Origin: a bacterium
Lineage (GTDB): Bacteria; Zixibacteria; MSB-5A5; WJJR01
Length of the DNA: 43,779 nucleotides
Direction: 5' to 3'
Assembly (NCBI GenBank): GCA_021813505.1
Contig: JAKAKI010000044.1
Location: forward strand, 1-43,779
The notes under the pieces were generated by a model, which made no database searches, was not told where the DNA came from, and worked only from the letters and a program-made list of their open reading frames with translations. Below, piece after piece: positions 17,199-26,808 of this stretch; the stretch's first letter is position 1, and each line of letters begins with the position of its first letter. Position numbers and translations under genes: made by a program.

Positions 17199-18209
17199 AT
17201 GCGAATCGCAACGATTCTGGTCGCAGGAGCAGCACTCCTCGCGGCGCAACAGGCCGTCGCCGGGGATTATCACTACAACCGCACGCTGAATTGCAACGAA
17301 TGCCATGTCATGCATGGCTCGATGCAGCATGGCTACAATAACGACGGCGGCGGGTACCGAACGGCGATCGGCGGCGCCGCCCCCTATCCAACTCTCTTGC
17401 GCAATTCGATCAACGCGTTGTGTCTCTCCTGCCACGATAACCAGACTTTTGCCCCCGACGTGCTTGAAGTCAACGGCGGCCCCGCGCCGACATTGGGCCG
17501 CCAAGGTGGCGCTCTCAATCAGCATAACATCAATCCGTATCGGGATGCCGGCGGACACACACTCGGATCGACCGCCACCGCTCCCGGCGGAACCTGGACC
17601 AGCGGCGCCGGGCTGACCTGCATCGACTGCCACAGCGCGCATGGCGTCGGCGGTCCGCACGCGGCCAATCCATTCCGCAATCTCTCAGGCCCCAATTCGA
17701 TTGTCATCTCATACGCGGTTGGGACCAATGATCTCACCAGGGATGTCTTCGAACGGCTGAATGGGGGATACAACCATTACGACATCGGCAATATCGATTT
17801 CAACGAGCCCAAGTCCGATTCGTCCTACTACGGTGCATTCTGCCGCCAATGCCATACGACATTCCATGGCAGTTCTGCCGACGCTGCCATGAAATCGGAG
17901 AACGCCTGGCTCCGGCATCCGACGGCCGATGCTCAGATCGACGGTGACATGCTCACCTGGTTTAGGAACAGGAATTACCGGGTCAAGGTGATGAGCCCGA
18001 CCGGCGATTGGGGCACCCAGGGGTCACAATGGACCACTGCCCCTGCCACGATCACACCCTCTTGTTTCACGTGTCACCGTGCCCATGGGAATAAGCGGTC
18101 ATTCGCGCTGATCCTCCCGGATAGCCTGGGGAATTCTCCAGTTGGCGAAGAAGGAAGCGGCACGGCCTACCCCGGTCTGTGCCGCTCCTGCCATTCGGAG
18201 GGCGTCTAG
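17199..18209 (+). CDS. Six-heme c-type cytochrome, exported
   Basis: This 336-residue protein has a signal peptide (cleavage near 'AVAG', residue 22) and six CXXCH heme-binding motifs at residues 32-36, 75-79, 141-145, 215-219, 289-293 and 328-332. Several are followed by 'xxHG', a pattern seen in doubled-CXXCH cytochromes. Extra histidines near the motifs could be distal ligands. It should carry electrons in the periplasm or at the surface, perhaps to a metal or other external acceptor. No partner oxidoreductase, quinol dehydrogenase or porin gene is beside it, so its circuit is unknown. GGGGGG sits just before ATG 17199. Confidence 0.9.
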   Translation: MRIATILVAGAALLAAQQAVAGDYHYNRTLNCNECHVMHGSMQHGYNNDGGGYRTAIGGAAPYPTLLRNSINALCLSCHDNQTFAPDVLEVNGGPAPTLGRQGGALNQHNINPYRDAGGHTLGSTATAPGGTWTSGAGLTCIDCHSAHGVGGPHAANPFRNLSGPNSIVISYAVGTNDLTRDVFERLNGGYNHYDIGNIDFNEPKSDSSYYGAFCRQCHTTFHGSSADAAMKSENAWLRHPTADAQIDGDMLTWFRNRNYRVKVMSPTGDWGTQGSQWTTAPATITPSCFTCHRAHGNKRSFALILPDSLGNSPVGEEGSGTAYPGLCRSCHSEGV

Positions 18210-18305: not shown

Positions 18306-18371
18306 CGTCACTCCCGCGAAAGCGGGAATCCAGTCGCGCCCTCAAACAACTGGATTCCCGCTTTCGCGGGA
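18306..18371. repeat. Inverted repeat of the ATTCCCGCGAAAGCGGGAAT type, copy 1
   Basis: The left arm at 18306-18333 holds CTCCCGCGAAAGCGGGAATC, itself palindromic. The right arm at 18350-18371 holds CTGGATTCCCGCTTTCGCGG. A truncated further arm (CGTCATTCCCGC) lies at about 18288. A second full copy is at 26693-26759. The motif resembles the dRS3-like repeats common in bacteria. It lies between the convergent cytochrome and Cys-rich protein genes. Confidence 0.75.
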
Positions 18372-18418
18372 AAGACTTCGGTGGCACTCGCGACCGCGAT
18401 CGGGCGGCACGCAAACGA

Positions 18419-18477: not shown

Positions 18478-18855
18478 CTAGTTGGACGGCTTGGCGGCCG
18501 GCGGGTTCAACTGCGCCATCGCCTTGGCAAGATTCTCGTCGGACATCTTGGCGGCCGCGGCTGGGTCAGCCATTGCCATTTTGTGACAGCCCTCGGTGCA
18601 GCAGGCGTATCGTTTGCCATTGGACTCGAGGTACTTGGTGGTGGCGTCGGGAACGAAGATCTTTCCACAACCGCAAACTGCGATCTCGTTCGCAACTGGG
18701 CTGCTAGTCGCAGCCGTCTTGGCTGTTCCGGCGGCCTTGGGGGCAGCCGATGCCTTGTCAGCCGTCTTGGCAGTTCCTTGGGCAAACGCGGAGAGCGGGC
18801 CCATAGCGACCAGCAACGCGAGTGCTGTACCGATGACCAGAGTGCGTTTCAACAC
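18478..18855 (-). CDS. Small exported Cys-rich, probably metal-binding protein
   Basis: This 125-residue protein starts at GTG 18855, which has GGAGG 8 bases upstream. The longer frame to 18897 would place a polar stretch before the signal peptide. The signal peptide ends near 'SAFAQG'. An Ala/Lys/Thr-rich linker of about 40 residues follows, then a compact Cys cluster: 'VCGCGKIF', then 'YACCTEGCHKMAM'. The spacing (CxC, CC, CxxxxCH-like) suggests bound zinc, copper or iron, with some likeness to YHS or TRASH-type domains. The family is not identified with certainty. It diverges from an aldo/keto reductase gene, with a perfect palindrome between them. A terminator follows at 18419-18442. Confidence 0.75.
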   Translation of the reverse strand: MLKRTLVIGTALALLVAMGPLSAFAQGTAKTADKASAAPKAAGTAKTAATSSPVANEIAVCGCGKIFVPDATTKYLESNGKRYACCTEGCHKMAMADPAAAAKMSDENLAKAMAQLNPPAAKPSN

Positions 18856-18958
18856 GGTTCCTACCTCCGTTGGGTGATGAGAGTTCTCGGTCCCCAATCC
18901 TCGGGGATCGGTCTTAACAGGGCTATTTCACCCCGCATTAGAAGGCGAAGTTCCAAAA

Positions 18959-18975
18959 TTGACAATAATTGTCAA
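18959..18975. promoter_or_regulatory. Perfect 17-bp palindrome, Fur-family-like 7-1-7 operator candidate
   Basis: TTGACAATAATTGTCAA is a perfect 8-1-8 palindrome lying about 102 bases from each of two divergent starts (18855 and 19077). Its inner TGACAAT-A-ATTGTCA has the 7-1-7 layout of Fur-family boxes (Fur, Zur, PerR). It is AT-rich in a GC-rich background. The TTGACA half could also serve as a -35 element on either strand, but no well-spaced -10 was found. The regulator identity is inference. Confidence 0.55.
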
Positions 18976-19076
18976 GATAAAATGTACCCGGTGGCATTGA
19001 TAATCAGGTTGCCAGCTCGGCACGGGGTGAGTTGCTTGGGGATGCGACGCTAACCCGAGACGACGGTGGCAATCCT

Positions 19077-19889
19077 ATGAACACCGATTTCAGCACAGCC
19101 AATCTGGGGAATTCTGGTATCCCGGTCCACCGCATGGGCTTGGCGGCAACGTATCGCCCCGGCAAGGCGGCCATCCATGAGGCGATCGACCGGGGAGTGA
19201 ACTTCGTCTTTTGCTACGGGTTCGATACCCAAGCCATGAGTGTCGTGCGTGACGTCCTGAAGGCCGGCCGGAAAGATATCGTCGTAGCCACCGGTGCCTA
19301 CAACCTGATTTGGGGCCACACAAATCTGCGCCGGACGCTGGAGAAACGTTTGCGCAAACTCGGCACAGATCACATCGACGTCTTTCTGTTTCTCGGAGTA
19401 ACCAAGCGCAAGCATCTGACCGACGAGGTCAAATCAGAACTCGTGCGTTTCCGCGAGGAAGGCAAGGTACGCTGCATTGGAATCTCCGGCCACGACCGGA
19501 GATTCCACGCGGAGCTTGCCACGGAGGGAGTTCTCGATACGATGATGATGCGCTACAACGCCGCCCATCGCGGCGCCGAAGAGGAGATCTTCCCCCATCT
19601 GCAACCACACAATCCCGGCGTCATCAGCTACACCGCCACGCGGTGGTCCTATCTGCTCCGCCGGCCGAAGAACTGGCCCAAAGGCGAGCGAGTCCCAACC
19701 GCTGCGATGTGCTACCGATTTGTATTGTCCAACCCGAATGTCGACGTCTGCCTGACGGCACCGTCGAACGTTAAGCAGCTTCGCGAGAATCTCGCGGCAA
19801 TCGAAGCGGGTCCGCTCTCCGACGAAGACATGCAATTCATGCGGACATTCGGCGATGCCGTGCATGCGCAGAAGAAGTACTTCATGTAG
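19077..19889 (+). CDS. Aldo/keto reductase
   Basis: This 270-residue protein opens 'LGNSGIPVHRMGLAATYRPG', followed by 'AIDRGVNFVFCYGFDTQAM', the place where the family keeps its catalytic Asp/Tyr segment, and 'KLGTDHIDVFLFLG' at the usual strand 4 position. NADPH-dependent reduction of a carbonyl compound is expected. The usual 'FDTA..Y' order is changed to 'FCYGFDT', so activity on ordinary substrates is less certain. I chose ATG 19077 because the family match begins soon after it; the longer frame from 19032 has no homology. It shares its upstream region with the Cys-rich protein gene, and a large hairpin repeat follows 14 bases after its stop. Confidence 0.82.
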   Translation: MNTDFSTANLGNSGIPVHRMGLAATYRPGKAAIHEAIDRGVNFVFCYGFDTQAMSVVRDVLKAGRKDIVVATGAYNLIWGHTNLRRTLEKRLRKLGTDHIDVFLFLGVTKRKHLTDEVKSELVRFREEGKVRCIGISGHDRRFHAELATEGVLDTMMMRYNAAHRGAEEEIFPHLQPHNPGVISYTATRWSYLLRRPKNWPKGERVPTAAMCYRFVLSNPNVDVCLTAPSNVKQLRENLAAIEAGPLSDEDMQFMRTFGDAVHAQKKYFM

Positions 19890-25948: not shown

Positions 25949-26133
25949 TGTGCTTAATGTCCCACGATGGTGTCGTTTGACTCTTCGGCAGGGCCACAGA
26001 ATGGCGGCGTAACGCGCTACCATTAAACAGCTTACCGGCAATTGACAATCAAAGGGCATTTTCCACACGCAAATACTTTACTTTTTCGTATACATTCTGC
26101 CGCGAGGATAGATCGTGGCAAGGTGAACAGACG

Positions 26134-26692: not shown

Positions 26693-26759
26693 CGTCATTC
26701 CCGCGAAAGCGGGAATCCAGACTCTACGAGCACTGGACCCCCGCTTTCGCGGGGGTGAC
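26693..26759. repeat. Inverted repeat of the ATTCCCGCGAAAGCGGGAAT type, copy 2
   Basis: CGTCATTCCCGCGAAAGCGG running into GAATCCAG (26693-26720) is matched by CTGGACCCCCGCTTTCGCGG running into GGGTGAC (26732-26759). It lies between the Rrf2 gene and sufC and would form a long hairpin in their mRNA. It is the same family as the repeat at 18306-18371. Confidence 0.8.
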
Positions 26760-26808
26760 ATCGGCGCACAAGGGCTCCCTTGTGTTCGAATGAACGAAAG
26801 GCAGAACG

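Follow-up and report, generated by a model that had tools for sequence, protein, structure and literature searches.

The window, that is the whole analysed stretch of 43,779 nt from a member of the phylum Zixibacteria, carries the palindrome TTGACAATAATTGTCAA at positions 18959-18975, between a gene for a Cys-rich exported protein and a divergently oriented aldo/keto reductase (AKR) gene. The locus raises the question of whether this palindrome is an operator and, if so, of which regulator and for which genes. A preliminary description had proposed a Fur-family box whose metal- or peroxide-sensing regulator would control both genes. As argued below, the palindrome is probably the operator of the organism's single Fur-family repressor, of the 17-bp WTGAAAATNATTTTCAW kind, and the repressor would block the Cys-rich gene at its -35 element.

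Form and statistics of the palindrome

The palindrome is present exactly where it had been described. It is an 8-1-8 inverted repeat, the inner 15 bases of which (TGACAAT-A-ATTGTCA, 18960-18974) match the reported 7-1-7 form (7-1-7 rule according to PMC6212828). The near-midway placing between both genes also held, as the distance from the palindrome centre to the AKR start codon (ATG at 19077) is 110 bp and that to the probable beginning of the Cys-rich gene is 112 bp.

Perfect 8-1-8 palindromy by itself is unremarkable. It is not rare as such, because three perfect 8-1-8 palindromes occur in the window and 1.13 were expected by simulation; shuffling of the 219-bp intergenic gap gave one in 71 of 20,000 shuffles. 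Unlike bare palindromy, the exact sequence TTGACAATNATTGTCAA, with the central base left free, is significant in this genome: two copies were found in about 3.9 Mb (3.89 Mb), while 0.0007 were expected. The window site and the second copy have in common a 22-bp stretch, AAAATTGACAATMATTGTCAAG (18955-18976, plus strand), which is identical at both sites except for the central base. A literature search for the exact palindrome core gave no match.

Flanking genes and putative promoter

The Cys-rich exported protein is encoded on the minus strand (18478-18858). The alignment revealed an invariant CxC...C...C pattern, and no family match was obtained in a Pfam search of the protein. The protein family is present in 12 of the 133 genomes of the class, in some cases with two domain copies in one frame, and its invariant CxC, C and C positions resemble metal-binding domains of the TRASH/YHS type. 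The AKR gene is encoded on the plus strand (19077-19889; Pfam PF00248, E=1.9e-21). An exported multihaem cytochrome-like protein with doubled CXXCH motifs (17199-18209) adjoins the Cys-rich gene and is kept in the sister species. Repeats of REP-like type with arms TTCCCGCTTTCGCGGGAA lie at 18310-18375 and 26697-26760 of the window and recur in the sister species.

On the minus strand, TTGTCA (18960-18965), which lies within the palindrome, is followed after a spacer of 17 bp by TCTAAT (18937-18942; TCGAAT in the related species). Together these putative -35 and -10 elements give the Cys-rich gene a good promoter of the sigma-70 type. Ahead of the AKR gene, no promoter of comparable quality was found. 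Hence, of the proposed control of both genes by one regulator, the part concerning the Cys-rich gene gains a well-placed putative promoter and the part concerning the AKR gene does not; Fur might also control this divergent gene.

A second exact copy ahead of a T6SS operon

The second exact copy of the palindrome was located on contig C18 (44201-44217). A tRNA-Ser(CGA) gene ends 46 bp before it, and a type VI secretion system (T6SS) operon, whose first gene encodes a T6SS_FHA_C domain, starts 60 bp behind it. This gene is followed by tssJ, tssK, tssL, tssM, tagF, tssA, tssC and tssH (clpV), and by sequence inspection only, tssB-, hcp-, tssE-, tssF-, tssG- and vgrG-like genes were also assigned to the operon, which thus looks complete. 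The expectation that a genome scan would lead to metal transport or peroxide defence genes was therefore not borne out, since the second exact copy precedes a T6SS operon instead. A TATAAC hexamer starts 13 bp behind this palindrome, so that the palindrome covers the -35 region here as well. A pair of divergent -35 elements was rejected as an explanation, because the tRNA gene adjoining the T6SS site is not divergent.

Conservation in the genus and the class

In the sister species (G001), the only other species of the genus, ATGACAATAATTGTCAA is found between the orthologous Cys-rich and AKR genes, and the exact palindrome is kept ahead of the orthologous T6SS operon. When the Cys-rich/AKR gaps of the two species were compared, 16 of the 17 palindrome positions were identical versus 83% elsewhere in the gap (p=0.21), and 36 of 37 positions were identical in the 37-bp block around the palindrome (p=0.009). 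At the T6SS site conservation is uninformative, because the entire region is almost identical throughout between both species.

The exact palindrome is absent from the other 131 of the 133 class genomes, all outside the genus, and the orthologues of the AKR, Cys-rich and T6SS genes in other genera lack it as well. Conservation upstream of the orthologous gene pair, on which the preliminary description had made its proposal depend, thus extends to the single other species of the genus and is lost in more distant orthologues of either gene.

Near-matches in the class numbered 298, compared with 68 for a reversed-pattern control, a ratio that is biased because the control pattern holds TAA/TTA, which is avoided by coding DNA. 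A class-wide regulon was rejected, as the sites examined lie in unrelated genes, many of them in coding sequence, and have no common function. Weaker matches with two or three mismatches, present in both species of the genus, were discarded too: those at C87/C31, C27/C57, C88/C15 and C94/C137 lie within coding sequence, some of them in signal-peptide codons, and the core of the match ahead of a pyruvate-dehydrogenase-type E1 gene (C50/C20) is not palindromic.

The Fur gene and Fur-type boxes

Each species of the genus has one gene of the Fur family (PF01475). It is located in a fur-feoB-dtxR cluster (G000:C87:134398 in the genome of the window), and the nearest solved relatives of the encoded protein are Fur proteins. 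PerR was rejected as the regulator, since the second Fur-family gene that stands beside katG in relatives has no counterpart in this genome.

In delta-proteobacteria, the Fur box was described by Rodionov et al. 2004 as the 17-bp palindrome WTGAAAATNATTTTCAW, located ahead of feoAB and fur (PMC545781). The window palindrome equals it in length, symmetry and A/T ends and agrees with it at 14 of the 16 specified positions. The C at half-site position 5 also occurs in published delta-proteobacterial boxes, which include TTGACAAT halves, for example in tTGAcAATCATTTTCAT ahead of D. vulgaris feoAAB (PMC545781). The window palindrome differs from WTGAAAATNATTTTCAW in that the C/G variant is present in both halves together, and in its putative targets, where a T6SS operon and a Cys-rich protein take the place of feoAB. 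Compared with the 7-1-7 Fur box of Bacillus subtilis, TGATAATNATTATCA, the core agrees at 13 of 15 positions, a count equal to that of the catDE Fur box (PMC6212828), and each of its halves has C/G instead of T/A at position 4.

A matrix was built from 36 of the delta-proteobacterial Fur boxes in Table 3 of Rodionov et al. 2004 (PMC545781) and applied to selected stretches of these Zixibacteria genomes. The window site scored 18.7, its form in the sister species 18.5 and the T6SS site 21.5, whereas the 36 sites themselves scored 18.9-27.1; by this delta-proteobacterial matrix, the window site is therefore slightly under the lowest published training site and the T6SS site is inside the range. 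The window site scores at the low end because both of its halves carry the C/G variant. Taken alone, the matrix score is weak evidence, since a genome should hold about 2-5 sites scoring at least 18.5 by chance. Stretches that encode signal peptides can give rise to Fur-like strings as well.

Three further results are independent of the palindrome and thus lend independent support to Fur. Firstly, the fur promoter of both species contains, in identical form, the overlapping matches TTGAAGTTGATTATCAA (18.8) and TTGATTATCAATTTCGA (17.6), which are offset by 6 bp, an offset also seen for tandem boxes in the table of Rodionov et al. 2004 (PMC545781). TTGAAGTTGATTATCAA ends 42 bp ahead of the fur ATG; among 20,000 shuffles 28 reached 18.8 and none contained the tandem pair. 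Secondly, in G002, which belongs to another genus of the same family, TTGATTATCGTTTTCAC (19.0) is located 103 bp ahead of the start of the T6SS operon, which likewise adjoins a tRNA gene (tRNA-like sequence). This score was reached in 3 of 20,000 shuffles, giving a corrected probability of about 0.004 for some 25 orthologous upstream regions. Because it is spelled differently, the G002 box points to Fur and not to a reader of TTGACA arms. Thirdly, a perfect consensus box, TTGAAAATCATTTTCAT (29.5), was found in both species (L053:4011-4027, L054; G000:C89, G001:C100) upstream of a gene whose large, exported product contains VWA, PKD and Ig-like domains.

In the regions examined, Fur-box matches were absent from the T6SS orthologues of G004, G006 and G007, from fur of G002 and G004 and from the Cys-rich orthologues of other genera. 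No additional match was found between fur and feoB in L060/L061. Fur-type sites were few, and among those examined none lies ahead of an iron-uptake gene except at fur itself (fur-feoB locus). The Fur-family reading of the preliminary description is thus strengthened in part, by the single Fur gene, the tandem matches before fur, the G002 T6SS match and matrix scores within or at the lower edge of the published range. On its sequence, its second genomic copy and its matrix score, the element at 18959-18975 was annotated as a putative Fur operator.

Alternative explanations

The palindrome might be read by another transcription factor that controls two operons in the genus, which we consider unlikely. 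There are just two exact sites, confined to one genus among 133 genomes, and no coherent gene set lies downstream of the near-matches elsewhere in the class. No candidate regulator gene, however, adjoins either of the two sites or belongs to the T6SS cluster, and under this explanation the Fur-box matches before fur and before the T6SS operon of G002 would have to be coincidental.

The main rival to Fur, though rather improbable, is a repressor of the Xre type (HTH_3), such as those that act as restriction controllers or are linked to ImmA, which would read the TTGACA/TGTCAA arms. It is suggested by the identical palindrome, TTGACAATTATTGTCAA, which was found 9-18 bp ahead of small Xre genes, behind which lie methyltransferase genes or others of restriction type, at at least four loci of Bacteroidota/Ignavibacteria (L107, L149, L157 and L168), where it is a probable autoregulatory operator. 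In the genome of the window itself, ACTTGACA-GATCAT-TGTCAAGT lies upstream of an Xre gene that is followed by a gene for an ImmA-like peptidase (L315:1501-1518; G000:C93:30335), but the spacing at this site is 6 instead of 5. The Bacteroidota operators at restriction-modification loci, although identical in their 17 bp, hold that autoregulatory position before the Xre gene, and neither the window site nor the T6SS site has an Xre gene next to it. Moreover, an Xre protein similar to that of Bacteroidota was not found in the sister species, though both palindromes are kept there, and the Fur-type boxes before fur and the G002 T6SS operon would be left unexplained. Given these Xre occurrences of the identical palindrome, resemblance of the motif alone cannot name the regulator, and the same palindrome ahead of unrelated regulator genes in other phyla calls for caution in naming regulators by motif only.

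The exact palindrome was found in at least 117 stretches of public genomes, 69 of 117 among the matches listed being intergenic by a crude gene call; many such matches are expected by chance. Among the matches listed, the palindrome stands about 30 bp before genes for GspE/PilB-like ATPases in two Aminicenantes; in one Acidobacteriota genome it lies near an N-terminal domain of similar, GspE/PilB-like type (L108, L124 and L146, the Acidobacteriota case included). It also stands, among the matches listed, 14 bp before a gene for a ZnuA-like metal-binding lipoprotein in a high-G+C genome (L208).

That the palindrome has no regulatory role, being a coincidence of -35 elements or a weak terminator-like hairpin left over from a small duplication, is very improbable: TTGACA and TTGTCA would serve well as -35 hexamers, the 22-bp block common to both sites fits a small duplication, and in the simple test above the palindrome was no better conserved than its flanks, though the surrounding 37-bp block was, but a 6-bp element cannot explain a recurrence of 16/16 positions ahead of two operons, and the hairpin was rejected for its short, A+T-rich stem, which in the window follows no gene in the direction of its T-run.

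Proposed regulation and comparison with known systems

If the palindrome is a Fur operator, metal-loaded Fur would bind it and cover the -35 element (TTGTCA) of the Cys-rich gene, which would be kept off as long as iron, or whichever metal is sensed, is sufficient. The T6SS operon would be held down by Fur in the same way, and under scarcity of the metal both the Cys-rich gene and the T6SS operon would be released.

Fur controls T6SS clusters of several Proteobacteria (PMC3145626, PMC10441874). In the sci1 cluster of enteroaggregative E. coli, Fur boxes overlap T6SS promoter elements and Fur hinders RNA polymerase (PMC3145626), and in T6SS4 of Yersinia pseudotuberculosis the repression by Fur responds to manganese (PMC10441874). 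As in sci1 and T6SS4, the putative Fur-type site described here overlaps T6SS promoter elements. It differs from sci1, which has two boxes, in the presence of one strong box, and from both systems in the phylum and in being known from sequence. The palindrome is most likely a Fur-binding site that the Cys-rich gene has in common with the T6SS operon.

If confirmed, the Fur-T6SS link shown in several Proteobacteria would reach the Zixibacteria, for which no literature on Fur control of T6SS was found in a search of incomplete coverage. An initial outline of how an uncultured phylum regulates its response to metals would then comprise one Fur, its own promoter, the T6SS operon and the Cys-rich exported protein, and the Fur reading would be a clue to the function of a Cys-rich family that has no Pfam entry. 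A broader and rather doubtful proposal is that Fur of Zixibacteria jointly controls the T6SS and the exported Cys-rich CxC...C...C family, with contact-dependent antagonism or metal scavenging by the T6SS as a metal-starvation response outside the Proteobacteria and the Cys-rich protein as a metal-handling partner.

Region upstream of the Rrf2 gene

The half-site reported upstream of the Rrf2 gene, TTGACAAT at 26042-26049 (plus strand), is present but not conserved: the sister species has TTGACACT, and neither a palindrome nor an inverted partner accompanies it. It is probably unrelated to the palindrome. Unlike this half-site, the block CGCAAATACTWTACTTTTTCGTATACATTCTG (26073-26105) ahead of the Rrf2-suf cluster hardly differs between both species and is a candidate Rrf2 operator or promoter.
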